A stretch of DNA of 51,725 nt from Campylobacteraceae bacterium (lineage in GTDB: Bacteria; Campylobacterota; Campylobacteria; Campylobacterales; Sulfurovaceae). The stretch is from positions 1 through 51,725 of the forward strand of contig JALVUD010000006.1 in assembly GCA_027035765.1 (NCBI GenBank), written 5' to 3'. Of this stretch, positions 22,758 to 28,973 are shown one piece after another. Made by a program: the position numbers and the translations under genes. The number at the start of each line of letters is the position of its first letter. Position 1 is the first letter of the stretch. Under the pieces are notes generated by a model. That model made no database searches, was not told the DNA's origin, and saw only the letters and a list, made by a program, of their open reading frames with translations.

Positions 22758-23384
22758 ATGCGGACGGCGGCCTATCTGAACATCATCCTGGGCTTCTTCC
22801 TCCTCCTGACCGGCTGCGGGAAAAAGGAAAACAATCAGCCCCCCCTGAGCGAAAGCAATAACTCTCAAATACACCATCCCCGATCCTCAGTACCGGTCTC
22901 CAATGTTCAGCAACCACGCTCTTTCCGCATCCGGGATATCGACGGCCGGGAAACCCTCCTGAAATTTCAGGGAAGCACCGGACAATTTCGTCGGATTCGT
23001 CAACCCATTGTCATTCTGACACTCTTTGGCGACTGGTGCCCCCCCTGCCGAGGGATGCTCCCCTACCTGAGCCATCTTCAAGAATCCAACCGTGACAATC
23101 TTTTCGTCATCGGGGTTCTTCTACGGAGCAAACTGGACCGGGAAGGGGTACGCCGATTCATGAAACGCTACGCCACCAGCTTCTTCATCTCGATTCATCC
23201 GGACAACGAAGCTCTGGCCGGCTATCTGACCCGGCAGCTCGAACTGGGGGAGAACTACCCCCTGCCGTTGACACTGATCTTCAAAAACGGTAAATATGTG
23301 ATGAATATTCAAGGGGCAGCCCCCTATGAAATGCTGCAAACCCTCGTCGACCAACTGAAAAAGCCTCAAGAGAAAAAGGAGTAG
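22758..23384 (+). CDS. TlpA-like thioredoxin lipoprotein
   Basis: A 208-residue lipoprotein with a lipobox LLTGC (lipid-modified Cys20), a short linker, and a TlpA/ResA-type thioredoxin domain with the redox pair in FGDWCPPCRGM (Cys94, Cys97). It probably reduces or oxidises disulfides in the periplasm, for instance during cytochrome c assembly; the partner is unknown. GAGGAG precedes the ATG. The ftsY start follows after 5 bases, so they share a transcript. Confidence 0.85.
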   Translation: MRTAAYLNIILGFFLLLTGCGKKENNQPPLSESNNSQIHHPRSSVPVSNVQQPRSFRIRDIDGRETLLKFQGSTGQFRRIRQPIVILTLFGDWCPPCRGMLPYLSHLQESNRDNLFVIGVLLRSKLDREGVRRFMKRYATSFFISIHPDNEALAGYLTRQLELGENYPLPLTLIFKNGKYVMNIQGAAPYEMLQTLVDQLKKPQEKKE

Positions 23385-23389
23385 AGCCT

Positions 23390-24265
23390 ATGCTGGGATT
23401 TCTGAAAAAAGCCTTCGGCAAAACCAACGAAGCGATCCGGGAGGTGGTGCCCGAAAAACGGAGCAAAATCTCCAAAGAGGAGTTCGAAGAGGTTCTTCTG
23501 GAAGCTGACGTTGCCTATGAGTTGATCGAACGTCTGCTGGAGAGCCTCCCGGAAACCATCAGCCGCGTCCAGGCCTTCAACTCCCTCATCAGCGTCTTTC
23601 AGTACCAGGCCCGCTGGATCAATCCCGACGACTACTCTCCTTTCGTCGAGATGATCATCGGCGTCAACGGAGCAGGCAAGACTACCACCATCGCCAAACT
23701 GGCCCGTCGTTATCAGCAGGAGGGCAAAAGCGTCATTCTCGGTGCCGGAGACACCTTCAGGGCCGCAGCGATCGAACAGTTGAGCCGCTGGGCCGGGAAG
23801 CTGCAGATTCCCGTCGTCGCCACCCGGCAGGGGCACGATCCCTCCGCGGTGGTCTATGATACAATCCGTTCCGCCCTGGCCAAAGGGATCGACCGGGTCA
23901 TCATCGACACCGCCGGACGGCTCCATACCCAGACCAATCTCGCCGAAGAGCTCAAAAAGATGGTCCGGGTAGCCGACAAAGCTCTGCCGGGTGCTCCCCA
24001 TCGCAAAATGCTCATCCTCGACGGCACCCAGGGAAGCTCCACCGTCAATCAGGCCAAAGCCTTCGACGCGATGATCGGGATCGACGGCATCATCATCACC
24101 AAGCTTGACGGCACGGCAAAGGGAGGGTCGGTCCTCACTATCGCCGATGAACTGAAGATGCCCATCTACTATATCGGCACCGGAGAGACTCCCGAAGACC
24201 TGATCCCTTTCAAAGCCAACGAATATGTCAACATGATCCTCGACGAAATCTTTGCACCAGCCTGA
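23390..24265 (+). CDS. ftsY: signal recognition particle receptor
   Basis: FtsY is the GTPase receptor that docks SRP-ribosome complexes at the membrane. At 291 residues it is the short form, with no acidic A domain, only the N and G domains. The P-loop is GVNGAGKTTT (91-100), followed by ILGAGDTFRAAAIEQL, DTAGR and TKLDGTAKGG. The ribosome site AAGGAG lies in the last codons of the lipoprotein gene. Confidence 0.95.
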   Translation: MLGFLKKAFGKTNEAIREVVPEKRSKISKEEFEEVLLEADVAYELIERLLESLPETISRVQAFNSLISVFQYQARWINPDDYSPFVEMIIGVNGAGKTTTIAKLARRYQQEGKSVILGAGDTFRAAAIEQLSRWAGKLQIPVVATRQGHDPSAVVYDTIRSALAKGIDRVIIDTAGRLHTQTNLAEELKKMVRVADKALPGAPHRKMLILDGTQGSSTVNQAKAFDAMIGIDGIIITKLDGTAKGGSVLTIADELKMPIYYIGTGETPEDLIPFKANEYVNMILDEIFAPA

Positions 24266-24285: not shown

Positions 24286-26592
24286 TTAGGTGTGGTGTTC
24301 CAGCAGGTAGCGCTCCACCGCACTTTTGAGTTTGTCCAGCTCCTCCTGGTAGTTTGCCACATCTTCCGAAGTCAGGTTCATCCCCTGCTCCCCGACCCGT
24401 CTGAAGAGCGGATCCACCACAGAATAGAGTGACTCGGCCCCGATCGTTGCTGCCAGTCCCCGGACATCGAGCAGCAGATTCCTTGCCTGATCGAGACTGC
24501 TCTCCCGTTGATACTTTCGCAGCAGAGTTCCACTCAGACTGTAAACCGCCAGAAACTCCTTGAGCAGTTCCGCATAGAGCTCCCTTTGATCGTTGGCATA
24601 AGCCAGTCCCTGTTTTTCATTCAGCACAGGGTAGCCATGGCTGCCGTGTTTTTCACTCTTTCCTGACCCTCGTGCTTTCTCTCCTGCCAAATAGTGTTCG
24701 AGCAGATCATAAAGCTGGGAGAGTTTGAAAGGTTTGGGAAGAAAGGCATCGAAACCGATCTCTTCGTACTTTTTGCTCTTTTCCTCCAGAGTGGAGGCGG
24801 TAAAGGCTACGAGGGGAAGCCTGTCGTAGCGACGATCCTCCCGGAGGATACGAGCCGCTTCCTCACCATCCATGACCGGCATACTGTTGTCCAGCAGTAC
24901 CAAATCATACGCGTTGCCCTCCCGCTGCAACCGGTCAAGGGCTTCTTTCCCGTCTGAGACAATCGTCAGTTGCAATCCGGATCTCGAAAGCAGATCCCGA
25001 AACATCTGCTGATTGATTCTGTTGTCCTCTGCCAACAGCAGCGAACCATTAAAATCGGCAAAACTCTCCCGTGTGATTCCCTTACGCTCCTTCGGTATGA
25101 AAAGGGGATAGGGCTGACGCTCGTAAATAGGTTCTTGCGGAGAAGTTTCTTTCCGAACAGTGTCGGATCCCGCCTTACCGGATGACTCTGCAGGAACTGA
25201 TGCGGGAGAGGTGGATTTCAGCGGCGAGCCCCCGACGATCTCCCCTTTGGCACCCGGGGTGCCGGGATGCACTCTCCCCGATGATTTCACCGACTCTTCC
25301 CCGAAGATCCGAAGAATCAGGTTGTAAATATCCCGCTGGGAGAAGGGACGATAGAGCCGACTGTCGATCTCCGAATCCTGCTCCATATGAACCGCCTGCT
25401 GTCGATCCAGCAGCAAGACTGTCTTCACCGAATGACTCCGGCGGACACTCTGGAGTACTTCCCGGACCAACGGCTGATACATCTCTTTTTCTATGATTGC
25501 AAGGTCGTAGCGACTGAAATTGGGAATCGCATCCTCGCAGTGCCTGTAGTCAAACAGTGTCACAGGATATTCATAAAGCTCGAACCCCTTTTTCAGCGCT
25601 TCGGCCTCCTCCGAGAATGCATCGAATATCAGGACCTTTCGGGGAGTACGATAGGGGTCCGGAAGTTCCGCATAGATTCCCAGATTGCTCTGATCCAGAT
25701 AGACGGGGACCCGGAGCACCACTTCATAGTTCTCCCCCGCCTTTCTAGCTTCGATCTTCCCACCCATCAGTTCCATCAGCTCCTTGGCCACATAGACTTT
25801 GAGCCCGACAAACTCCCGCTGTTCATCGTCATAATAGGGTTCCATACTCTGAAAAGCCGGATGGGTATTGGCTTGGTTACGATCCCGAATGGTGATCTCC
25901 ACCTCGAAGCGTTTGTTTTCTCCCTCCCGGGCCGAAGCCTCCATCGACATTGCCACCGGTTCCTCCACCTCCTCCAGGGCATTCTCCAGGAGATTGACCA
26001 GCACCTGCCCCAAACGAAGCGAATCCCCCTGAAGGATCCTCGGGATCTCCTCACTGATCCTCACTTCGAATTCATGTCCCCTCTCACCGTACTTTTTGGT
26101 CAGGACTTCGACCACATTATCCATCAGATGATAGAAGTCGAAATCCCCCGGGACGATCTCCACCCGCTTGGATTTGAGCTTGAGGAAGAAGATCAGATCC
26201 TGGGTCGTATGCAGAAGCTGACTCTCGCTCTCTTTGATCTTTCGGATCTCTTTTTCCGAAATGATCTGTCGCGCCTTTTCGATGACCTCTTCGGTACTGC
26301 GGGATGTATCCTGAAGCGTTTCGTAGATATTCTCGCCGAGATCCTCAAGAAACTTGCTCTGGCTCTCTTCCAGCTTTTTCTCTTTTTCCAGAATCTGATC
26401 GTAGACTTTTTTGAGACGTTTGATCTGCTCGGAAGAGACAAAAAGAATCACCACGCCGACGATGGCCAGGGAGATCAAACCCACCCACTCCCAAAAAAGG
26501 TCCTGGGAAGCGGCTGTTTCCGGGAGAGCCGCCTCCAGACCGCCGGTCGCCAGTACCGATAAAAATAACCACACTAAGATCCTGTATGCCAT
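24286..26592 (-). CDS. degenerate hybrid histidine kinase with one intact receiver
   Basis: A 768-residue membrane protein. A signal-like helix (3-22) and a transmembrane helix (about 35-53) precede a coiled coil. The DHp helix aligns to the kinase H-box as FLEDLGENI (81-89), with Glu87 in place of the phospho-His. The ATPase-like region (150-297) keeps an N-box (NLLENA) but lacks a DxGxG motif. A first receiver (318-430) has Glu368 in place of the phospho-Asp and Arg415 in place of Lys. A second receiver (515-636) is intact: Glu522/Asp523, Asp568, Thr598, Lys620. The C-terminal Hpt-like bundle (655-768) has LLLDVRGLAATIGA, without His. It is therefore unlikely to autophosphorylate; Asp568 may take phosphate from another kinase. 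It converges with ftsY. Confidence 0.82.
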   Translation of the reverse strand: MAYRILVWLFLSVLATGGLEAALPETAASQDLFWEWVGLISLAIVGVVILFVSSEQIKRLKKVYDQILEKEKKLEESQSKFLEDLGENIYETLQDTSRSTEEVIEKARQIISEKEIRKIKESESQLLHTTQDLIFFLKLKSKRVEIVPGDFDFYHLMDNVVEVLTKKYGERGHEFEVRISEEIPRILQGDSLRLGQVLVNLLENALEEVEEPVAMSMEASAREGENKRFEVEITIRDRNQANTHPAFQSMEPYYDDEQREFVGLKVYVAKELMELMGGKIEARKAGENYEVVLRVPVYLDQSNLGIYAELPDPYRTPRKVLIFDAFSEEAEALKKGFELYEYPVTLFDYRHCEDAIPNFSRYDLAIIEKEMYQPLVREVLQSVRRSHSVKTVLLLDRQQAVHMEQDSEIDSRLYRPFSQRDIYNLILRIFGEESVKSSGRVHPGTPGAKGEIVGGSPLKSTSPASVPAESSGKAGSDTVRKETSPQEPIYERQPYPLFIPKERKGITRESFADFNGSLLLAEDNRINQQMFRDLLSRSGLQLTIVSDGKEALDRLQREGNAYDLVLLDNSMPVMDGEEAARILREDRRYDRLPLVAFTASTLEEKSKKYEEIGFDAFLPKPFKLSQLYDLLEHYLAGEKARGSGKSEKHGSHGYPVLNEKQGLAYANDQRELYAELLKEFLAVYSLSGTLLRKYQRESSLDQARNLLLDVRGLAATIGAESLYSVVDPLFRRVGEQGMNLTSEDVANYQEELDKLKSAVERYLLEHHT

Positions 26593-26766
26593 TCGCCTGT
26601 CCTGTTTTCGATCCGAAGCGCCACCGCCCGTCCTTGATGGCGGATGGATCCGAGTAGGCAACCCGGCTGTCTTTTCCAAGACCCGTGGCTTTCCGTCCTA
26701 TCCTCTCAGATAGTTTGGCTTTGTCTGTTTGTGCTTTAAGTATACATAAAAAAGGGACGGTTGGGC

Positions 26767-26855: not shown

Positions 26856-28214
26856 ATGGCGAAAAAGAAAACGCTTTTCGAGTGTCAGGCCTGCGGCTTC
26901 CAAAGCCCCCGTTGGATGGGGAAATGCCCCAGTTGCGGTGAGTGGGAGAGTCTCGTCGAGCTGAGTGCCGAGCAGATCCGTTTCCTCAAAGAGACCGGCA
27001 GCAGCTCTTCAATAAATACAGGCCCTTCCAACGCCCAACCCATCACTGAAATCGACGAAGAAGAGTTCATCCGCTTTCCTTCGGGAAGCCGGGAACTGGA
27101 CCTGGTCCTTGGCGGGGGGATCGTTCCCGGCTCCCTGACCCTCATCGGCGGCTCTCCCGGGATCGGCAAGTCGACTCTCCTGCTCAAAATCGCCGGCAAT
27201 CTCGCCCACACCGGACGGCAGGTCCTCTATGTCAGCGGGGAGGAGTCCGCCGGGCAGATCAAACTGCGGGCCAATCGCCTCGACGCCAACGATGAGCGGC
27301 TCTACCTCCTAAGCGAGATCAACCTCGAGAGCGTCTTGAAAGAGCTGGATCGTCGGGAGTACGATTTTCTTGTCGTCGACTCCATCCAGACCCTTTACTC
27401 CGATGAGACACCTTCGGCTCCGGGATCGGTTACTCAGGTGCGTACCATTACCTTTGAGTTGATGCGTCTGGCCAAAAGTCGGCAGATTCCGGTCTTCATC
27501 ATCGGTCACATCACCAAAGAGGGCTCCATCGCCGGGCCCAGAGTTCTGGAACATATGGTCGATACGGTCCTCTACTTCGAGGGGGATACCAACTCGGAAC
27601 TGCGCCTGCTTCGCGGCTTCAAGAACCGCTTCGGTTCCACCAACGAAGTGGGGATCTTCGAGATGCGGCAGGACGGCCTGGTGGATGCAGCCGGATTCGC
27701 CGGAAAATTCTTCGATAAGGAGAGGCTCCAGTCCGGTTCAGCCCTGACCGTCATCATGGAGGGAAGCCGTCCCATCGTCATCGAGATCCAGGCTCTGGTG
27801 GCCGAAGCCTACGGCCACCCCAGGCGCAGCTCCACCGGCTACGACAACAATCGGCTCCAGATGCTTCTGGCCCTGCTGGAGAAAAAACTCGACCTACCAC
27901 TGGGAACCTACGATGTCTTCATCAACGTCAGCGGAGGGATCAAGATCAACGAACCCGCCGCCGATCTGGCGGTGATCGCGGCGATCCTCAGCAGCTACCG
28001 GAACCGGGAACTCAGCGCTGAAACCCTCTTTCTGGGGGAAGTGAGCCTCACCGGAGAGATCCGGGAGATCCCTGCACTCCAGCAGCGTCTCAGAGAGATG
28101 GAAACCCAGGGCTTCCGCAAAGCGGTCCTCCCGGCCAAACCCCTGGAAAAAAGCGGGATCAAATGTTACATCGCCGAAGAGGTGGGCAAAATCGTGGAGT
28201 GGATTTTCGTCTGA
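26856..28214 (+). CDS. radA: DNA repair protein RadA
   Basis: RadA is a RecA-like branch-migration ATPase used in recombination and repair. The 452-residue protein has the N-terminal C4 zinc finger (Cys10, Cys13, Cys24, Cys27), Walker A GGSPGIGKST (about 98-107), the RadA-specific KNRFG motif (about 254), and a C-terminal Lon-like domain (INVSGGIKINEPAADLAV). An alternative ATG exists further upstream, but this one matches the family start (MAKKKTLFEC). Confidence 0.95.
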   Translation: MAKKKTLFECQACGFQSPRWMGKCPSCGEWESLVELSAEQIRFLKETGSSSSINTGPSNAQPITEIDEEEFIRFPSGSRELDLVLGGGIVPGSLTLIGGSPGIGKSTLLLKIAGNLAHTGRQVLYVSGEESAGQIKLRANRLDANDERLYLLSEINLESVLKELDRREYDFLVVDSIQTLYSDETPSAPGSVTQVRTITFELMRLAKSRQIPVFIIGHITKEGSIAGPRVLEHMVDTVLYFEGDTNSELRLLRGFKNRFGSTNEVGIFEMRQDGLVDAAGFAGKFFDKERLQSGSALTVIMEGSRPIVIEIQALVAEAYGHPRRSSTGYDNNRLQMLLALLEKKLDLPLGTYDVFINVSGGIKINEPAADLAVIAAILSSYRNRELSAETLFLGEVSLTGEIREIPALQQRLREMETQGFRKAVLPAKPLEKSGIKCYIAEEVGKIVEWIFV

Positions 28215-28358: not shown

Positions 28359-28973
28359 ATGAAAAAATTCGCTGTTTTGCTTTTGGCTCTTTTCCTTTCT
28401 GCAGGTCTTCTACAGGCCAAAGACCCTGCTCCGGGCCTGACCCTTATGACGCTGGCGGGAAAGAAACTCCAGGTTCATGGCACGACCAACGGCCTGGATA
28501 TCGACAAGTACAAAGGAAAAATTGTTTTCCTGGAGTTCTGGGGGACCCACTGCCCTCCCTGCCTTATGTCCATCCCCCACTATATTGAGTTGACCAAAAA
28601 ATACGGCGACCGGCTGGCGATCCTCGCGGTGGAGGTCCAGGATACGCCGGCTCCCGTTTTGAAAAAATTTGTCCAAACCCACGGCATCAACTACGATGTG
28701 GTCGACTATCGCACAGGACAGCCTCTGGTGGCCTACATCAGCCAACGGACCGGCTGGAAGGGAAGCATTCCCTTTCTGACGATTTTCGACGATCGGGGCA
28801 ACTATGTGACCTCCCAGGTGGGCCTGCTGCCCCAGGAAGCCCTGGAGGGGGTGATCAAGACGCTTGAAAAGATGGCCGCCAAACGCAAGAGCGCTCCTGC
28901 CGCCTCTGTAAGTGGAAAAAAGACAGCGGTTTCTACCGAATCCTCCAGCTCGGAGAGCAACCGCTCCAAATAG
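28359..28973 (+). CDS. periplasmic TlpA-like thioredoxin
   Basis: A 204-residue exported protein. A signal peptide (about 1-21) is followed by a TlpA-type domain with FWGTHCPPCLMS (Cys65, Cys68). The C-terminal 35 residues are Ser/Lys-rich low-complexity sequence. It probably works in periplasmic thiol-disulfide exchange; its partner is unknown. It differs from the lipoprotein at 22758 in having no lipobox. It is convergent with dprA, whose stop is one base away. Confidence 0.83.
   Translation: MKKFAVLLLALFLSAGLLQAKDPAPGLTLMTLAGKKLQVHGTTNGLDIDKYKGKIVFLEFWGTHCPPCLMSIPHYIELTKKYGDRLAILAVEVQDTPAPVLKKFVQTHGINYDVVDYRTGQPLVAYISQRTGWKGSIPFLTIFDDRGNYVTSQVGLLPQEALEGVIKTLEKMAAKRKSAPAASVSGKKTAVSTESSSSESNRSK

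Follow-up and report, generated by a model that had tools for sequence, protein, structure and literature searches.

What can a hybrid histidine kinase still do once both of its phospho-histidines have been replaced? This question is raised by a gene in the window, by which we mean the whole stretch of DNA analyzed here (51,725 nucleotides). The initial annotation, made from the letters alone, had listed a glutamate (Glu87) at the phospho-histidine position of the dimerization domain (DHp), degraded ATP-lid motifs, a first receiver with Glu368 and Arg415, an HPt-like domain without histidine and a second receiver retaining Asp568 and Lys620. Our re-examination agreed with this list of residues, and the features are collected in Table 1. 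We favored the ATG at 26592 as the start because the alternative TTG at 26679 falls within a riboswitch aptamer (26653-26728). The gene is flanked by two forward-strand genes that we take, from reading of the sequence, to be ftsY (23390-24265) and radA (26856-28214), with no other gene between. Beyond these, two thioredoxin/TlpA-like genes, named by eye and weakly similar to each other, lie before ftsY (22758-23384) and after radA (28359-28973).

Table 1. Positions of the pseudo-hybrid kinase gene, its domains, its leader aptamer and the other aptamer matches in the same genome (G000)
Feature	Position	Strand	Remarks
Pseudo-hybrid histidine kinase gene	24286..26592	-	768 aa, ATG at 26592, stop included; 67-row family
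N-terminal anchor, residues 1-55	26428..26592	-	By inspection: start resembling a signal peptide, very short periplasmic part, one transmembrane helix
Pseudo-DHp two-helix region, residues 60-141	26170..26415	-	Phospho-His position taken by Glu87 (26332-26334)
Degenerate CA (ATPase-like) domain, residues 146-300	25693..26157	-	HATPase_c, 37.5 bits; G1 broken, lid shortened
Pseudo-receiver 1, residues 318-437	25282..25641	-	Glu368 (25489-25491), Arg415 (25348-25350); fold in model and alignment columns
Intact receiver 2, residues 515-635	24688..25050	-	Asp568 (24889-24891), Lys620 (24733-24735); Response_reg, 68.9 bits
Pseudo-HPt helical bundle, residues 659-766	24295..24618	-	His site taken by Leu708 (24469-24471); Asp709 (24466-24468) follows; fold from model
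c-di-GMP-I-GGC riboswitch aptamer (RF03167)	26653..26728	-	69.2 bits against a gathering score of 59; in the leader, 60 nt ahead of the ATG
RF03167 match	G000 C7:18691-18775 (L134)		73.7 bits; ahead of PilJ-PilJ-252 aa-intact hybrid kinase
RF03167 match	G000 C46:6470-6544 (L239)		Ahead of outer-membrane efflux protein, OmpA protein and large adhesin-like protein
RF03167 match	G000 C45:58433-58523 (L240)		57.6 bits, below the curated score

The structure model of the full protein (mean pLDDT 75, pTM 0.37, at which the placing of domains is unreliable) gave the order N-terminal anchor, two-helix DHp, CA domain, receiver, linker, second receiver and helical bundle, with helices at residues 2-22 and 28-107 in the N-terminal part and a disordered linker at 434-494 (pLDDT <50). 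Response_reg and HATPase_c were the Pfam domains above the cut-off, and no match to HisKA or Hpt was obtained in this protein in searches up to E 10. A Foldseek search with the model returned ShkA first (6qrj, E 1.2e-22), followed by RetS and GacS, with DivL lower.

Active kinases carry N-box, G1 and G2/lid motifs of known consensus, and HPt domains an HxLKG-type motif. Glu87 occupies the same column as the DHp histidine of an intact 1063-aa hybrid kinase of the same genome (hhalign, probability 100). The ATP site retains N204, the asparagine of the N box, and D237, the residue that opens G1, but G1 reads DRNQA instead of DxGxG, so that its glycines are gone, and the lid/G2 region reads EFVGLKV instead of GGTGLGL, with glycines lost and the lid shortened. 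Receiver 1 is degenerate (E368, R415), whereas receiver 2 is canonical throughout (E522, D523, D568, T598, K620). At the other end of the protein, the helical bundle is present in the model, with Leu708 at the HPt histidine position and Asp709 adjoining it. Set beside an active hybrid kinase, the protein therefore lacks the DHp histidine and a complete set of N, G1 and G2/lid motifs and keeps the receiver residues; its last domain, a bundle without the phospho-histidine, does not qualify as an HPt domain. As a kinase fold without phospho-histidine that is under selection (see below), it answers to the description of a pseudo-histidine kinase and, judged from its sequence, belongs to no active kinase family. 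Such losses are rare: according to the accessible part of one survey, phospho-sites are missing in 0.9% of HisKA domains, 0.9% of Hpt domains and 2.0% of receivers (PMC12632262).

We assembled a family of 67 distinct Campylobacterota members, consisting of the window's protein, 22 proteins from a search of 60 relatives (the 20 stretches inspected being chosen among its best places) and 44 new ones from a scan of named genomes. The latter scan gave 59 loci, 52 of which belonged to the family (33 titled Sulfurovum, the others bearing further Campylobacterota names), and eight of these duplicated earlier rows. We excluded L055:3191-5548 because it is a canonical hybrid kinase with its histidine. 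Nine sequences formed the outgroup, namely five loci of the named-genome scan and four intact kinases from L120-L123; L129 and L132 were left out. Gaps in the alignment, four at the DHp site and five or six in the C-terminal half, correspond to truncated proteins or proteins without helix 1.

The DHp site held 60 Glu, 2 Gln, 1 Asn and 4 gaps, with histidine in none of the 63 rows with letters, a count that is biased for the rows of the named-genome scan since one of the two search peptides contained ENI. In the window's row and the 22 rows found by whole-protein similarity, the same site held 20 Glu, 2 Gln and 1 gap; all nine outgroup kinases had histidine in this column of the alignment. Among the family rows with letters at the respective sites, the HPt histidine was present in 0 of 61 and Asp709 in 61 of 61, and receiver 2 kept its Asp in 62 of 62 and its Lys in 61 of 61, the acidic pair being invariant too. 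The phospho-site of receiver 1 varied widely in 66 rows (D 29, N 12, H 9, E 8, other letters 8). The alignment indicates constraint on the DHp glutamate, the HPt aspartate and receiver 2, but not on the receiver 1 site; by the same comparison, the conserved acidic residue is Glu87, not Glu368. The suggestion that Glu368 might be a phosphomimic was therefore dropped, as this position varies across the family and is alanine in an orthologue of 51% identity. Asp709 was also considered as a substitute for the HPt histidine and rejected, because an aspartate already stands beside an intact histidine in a wider homologue (L174, LAHDIKG); from its sequence context, it is more likely an old motif residue than a replacement.

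Comparison with the 87%-identical orthologue of G001 gave a dN/dS of 0.08 (438 codons, the G001 copy being cut by the contig end). Identity to the 51%-identical orthologue of G010, for which synonymous sites were saturated in most domains, was 75% in DHp, 64% in HPt, 60% in receiver 2, 50% in CA and 33% in receiver 1, so that DHp is the best kept domain and receiver 1 the least conserved folded domain. No internal stops were present in the available stretches of the three holders of the gene at this site (G000, G001 and G010; partial for G001). Among the matches listed from the open-licence PMC literature, we found no description of this pseudo-hybrid kinase family.

The site between ftsY and radA is occupied by the pseudo-kinase gene in these three genomes, with only the radA side visible for G001. 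In 7 of the 12 genomes of the genus with a radA match (13 searched), ftsY adjoins radA and the gene is missing (L252-L254, L256-L258, L260); neither ftsY nor the pseudo-kinase gene was seen in the stretches around radA of G002 and G007. Presence at the ftsY site is nevertheless probably old, with repeated loss, because homologues of other genera also sit beside or near ftsY (G016, G026, G035). The window and G010 proteins form a pair on a long branch (2.3 in one tree, 1.7 in another), so that their place in the family and strict orthology to the copies of other genera are uncertain. Such patchy presence is what one would expect of a decaying gene, and the initial annotation had named orthologues with intact motifs as the sign of decay. 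However, the substitutions are common to the whole family, no orthologue with intact motifs occurs among its 67 members, and the low dN/dS and the lack of stops in the available stretches point the same way, which makes decay highly improbable. As far as sequences tell, the loss of sites is an old, maintained design; the gene is dispensable, yet selected where retained.

Wider homologues bear on the order of the losses. A search of 298 genomes of the order with a pseudo-HPt profile (E 1e-6) matched at least 90 genomes; among the matches listed, those of at least 70 bits belonged to f1, the host family, and to f16, with the f16 proteins mostly 338-413 aa long. All 30 loci returned by this search, several of which were already among the family rows, lacked the histidine and had the aspartate. 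In 20 further loci chosen by hand, the histidine was present in L174 and L182, and the aspartate was missing in L180, L182, L186 and L188. The L174 protein has the DHp glutamate, a fairly intact ATP site and the HPt histidine, and passes the Pfam Hpt cut-off; L176 has kept the DHp histidine, with a broken ATP site and the HPt histidine gone. Four g11 paralogues (L187, L188, L196 and L202) have Asn for the receiver 2 Asp and, by their sequences, seem to have no usual phosphorylation site left. In a quick tree rooted with intact kinases, a single change accounts for loss of the DHp histidine in the rows sampled and leaves L176 outside, although the fork separating L176, itself a long branch, had weak support. 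Because L174 lies inside the clade that lost the DHp histidine, this tree implies that the HPt histidine was lost more than once. Short proteins composed of a transmembrane segment, a receiver and a pseudo-HPt domain without the HPt histidine were also observed (L135:6806-7984, L136:6708-7892, L138:9929-11032, L022:1489-2670). One of them, L135, is a 392-aa protein encoded on C19 of the window's genome; L135, L136 and L138 are similarly placed, and two of these adjoin a same-strand ABC-type ATPase gene (the neighbor named by eye).

The leader of the window's gene contains the window's only Rfam match at the gathering threshold, an aptamer of family RF03167 (E 2.2e-14 over the whole window), the name of which suggests c-di-GMP as the ligand. 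The G001 orthologue has the same aptamer (71.4 bits) at the same 60-nt spacing, and was the only one of 15 relatives' loci searched to have it, as the aptamer was not found at the G010 orthologue or at 13 others; nor was it found at 31 loci of the named-genome scan. Judged by their coordinates, four of the loci searched (L006, L010, L076 and L107) include little or no leader sequence. We therefore rejected the riboswitch as a family trait, since only the window and G001 have it among 47 loci, and a comparison by eye of the places of riboswitches and of family members revealed no further riboswitch beside a family member. As regards an expression platform, the predicted leader folds of the window gene and its G001 orthologue differ, and neither clearly surpasses shuffled sequences (z -1.21 and -1.16). 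The window's genome has three RF03167 matches above the curated score and one below (Table 1). The arrangement on C7 recurs in G009 and G011; the adhesin-like assignment on C46 was made by reading, Pfam showing weak domains only. With 14 GGDEF matches in this genome, cyclic dinucleotide signaling is likely to be present.

If the protein has no kinase chemistry of its own, its intact receiver would need a phosphate donor. The initial annotation had proposed, as the first of two options, a membrane scaffold with a single receiver fed by another kinase, and this proposal is retained here: the absence of own kinase chemistry and the one intact receiver agree with it. Its idea about Glu368 falls away, and it had not noted the riboswitch, the family-wide DHp glutamate or the operons of relatives that include an intact hybrid kinase. 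Our first guess for the donor in the window's genome would be the 1055-aa intact hybrid kinase encoded on C7, because of the shared aptamer and because relatives have overlapping kinase genes. In four related genomes (L120, L121, L122 and L123), which form one clade, the gene of a shortened family member is followed by a hybrid kinase gene whose start it overlaps by 1-8 nt. The product of the latter contains HisKA, HATPase_c and two Response_reg stretches, is 43-46% identical to the core of the C7 kinase and has no membrane segment, by eye, in its first 60 residues. A fifth case is L048, where the kinase overlapped by another family member is intact and carries solute-binding domains. Of the 66 loci (wider homologues included) that had sufficient sequence downstream, 5 had such an operon (21 more were too short); the other 61 had no kinase directly downstream, and the window's gene is followed by ftsY on the opposite strand. 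The family members at L120-L123 are not exact models of the window protein, because their DHp helix 1 is missing or unalignable (a gap in the family alignment, R or S in the tree alignment). Elsewhere in the window's genome, its only Hpt match above the cut-off is in an open frame on C45 (L133:9771-11351, reverse strand), which directly precedes the genes of the intact 1063-aa hybrid kinase and of a CheY-like protein.

A periplasmic domain seems common to the long family members and four small neighboring proteins, which align weakly in this part (11-29% identity). The model of this domain from L047 has the beta-alpha-beta-beta-alpha-beta arrangement of an RlpA-like SPOR fold and matched RlpA SPOR (6i09) with Z 10.3 and an rmsd of 1.9 over 72 residues, at a sequence identity of 10%; the first unrelated structure followed two units below, at Z 8.2. 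CwlC (1x60), the other SPOR structure listed, reached Z 8.3, tied with unrelated folds (8.2, 7.8). The SPOR-like match by Foldseek reached E 2.6e-3 only, and there was no Pfam match to SPOR in 14 family members. These SPOR-like domains are either fused to pseudo-kinases or found in separate small membrane proteins (L047:4769-5100, L048:7912-8436, L052:9332-9928, L054:2763-3464, L057:5726-6274). We found no combination of SPOR, histidine kinase and receiver domains in the open-licence PMC literature. In the window protein, which lacks a SPOR-like domain, the periplasmic part amounts to a few residues; the domain therefore informs the origin of the family and not the input of the window protein.

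Several known systems resemble parts of this protein. In Caulobacter DivL, as stated in the available portions of two reports, the DHp histidine is replaced in nearly all homologues, kinase activity is absent, and the protein works through the intact hybrid kinase CckA (PMC4211667; PMC5361649). The window protein shares the replaced histidine and a Foldseek match to DivL (4q20). However, DivL has Tyr at the site and, according to the accessible text, keeps its N, G1, F and G2 boxes (PMC4211667), whereas the window protein has Glu there and its lid is broken; it also has two receivers and a dead HPt, and its gene is preceded by a riboswitch. For the Caulobacter hybrid kinase CCNA_03265 (CC3162), in which the aligned histidine is missing and the receiver Asp is present, the text at hand offers feeding of the receiver by an HPt protein or a hybrid-kinase heterodimer, or the use of a nearby histidine, and its description there mentions neither a dead HPt nor a riboswitch (PMC11481889). 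Feeding of the receiver from outside is what we propose for the window protein; by analogy, it would be a dead hybrid kinase that resembles DivL and the suggested working of CCNA_03265. The likeness to Caulobacter ShkA, the best Foldseek match, rests on fold order (DHp-CA-pseudoREC1-REC2); ShkA is, according to the available part of its description, an active kinase with c-di-GMP bound to its pseudo-receiver (PMC7010744). In Pseudomonas, as far as the consulted source extends, RetS is a kinase-fold protein that blocks another kinase, GacS (PMC4866733). Both were structural matches of our model (6dk8 and 7n0e, Foldseek). RetS differs from the window protein in keeping its DHp histidine. Pseudo-HPt proteins of the AHP6 type share, in the descriptions at hand, the HPt fold without histidine; they are separate plant proteins, not part of a hybrid kinase, and have an inhibitory role.

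The losses, their conservation, the purifying selection, the aptamer and the partner operons of relatives were established by sequence analysis. We read these observations as a membrane pseudo-hybrid kinase in which the one live receiver would be a terminal switch, phosphorylated by an intact partner kinase; we give this reading an even chance. The DHp, ATPase-like, receiver 1 and HPt domains would be kept as folds unable to carry phosphate by the usual chemistry, so that normal phosphorylation would be confined to receiver 2; the DHp and HPt folds, though dead, may offer surfaces for dimerization and docking. An intact hybrid kinase, most likely that of C7, would pass phosphate to receiver 2, which would be a terminal switch because no phospho-histidine is left in the protein to take the phosphate onward. 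The c-di-GMP-type riboswitch in the leader would set the amount of protein, if the aptamer switches, in whichever direction. In a wider form, which we advance only tentatively as it seems rather unlikely in full, the Campylobacterota would have a class of membrane pseudo-hybrid kinases descended from SPOR-domain kinases, with the kinase and HPt parts turned into docking modules, the dead HPt domain reading the live receiver in place and the c-di-GMP riboswitch setting the number of receivers available to the partner kinase.

The same intact receiver in a protein without a phospho-histidine to forward phosphate could also serve as a sink, with its size set by the riboswitch, that draws phosphate from an intact kinase or from an Hpt protein and thereby weakens signaling through that pathway. 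The aptamer shared with the C7 kinase operon would then couple supply and sink, and the short transmembrane-receiver-pseudoHPt paralogues keep just this unit; however, a pure sink could do without DHp and pseudo-HPt, the two domains that the window protein and its G010 orthologue share most closely, and we regard this explanation as possible but doubtful. That DHp is the best conserved of all would suit an allosteric partner like RetS or DivL, in which the dead transmitter alters an intact kinase or response regulator and phosphorylation of receiver 2 is secondary. DivL provides a precedent, at least in the accessible part of its description (PMC4211667), Foldseek gave RetS, GacS and DivL, phmmer gave RetS, and translational overlap with intact kinases occurs in relatives. 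For a purely allosteric role, the catalytic residues of receiver 2 would be unnecessary, yet they are kept in every readable row, and the very clade with overlapping kinase genes has no alignable DHp helix 1; such a role thus appears unlikely, though worth keeping in mind. Signaling by conformation alone, with phosphate not involved, would accord with the loss of both phospho-histidines and one phospho-aspartate and with those g11 paralogues that also lack the receiver 2 Asp, but Asp568, Lys620 and the acidic pair are invariant in the main family, and we consider it improbable.

What sets the family apart is that at least 67 distinct proteins lack both histidines wherever these sites can be read, while one receiver is perfect; DivL, the best-known bacterial example in the literature consulted, lost the DHp histidine only. 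The predicted aptamer would link RNA-level control of the cyclic-dinucleotide type to a pseudo-hybrid kinase. The part-way homologues, with the HPt histidine kept in L174 and the DHp histidine in L176, make the order of loss directly testable, as is the question of which use remains for a transmitter and an HPt domain that are both dead.
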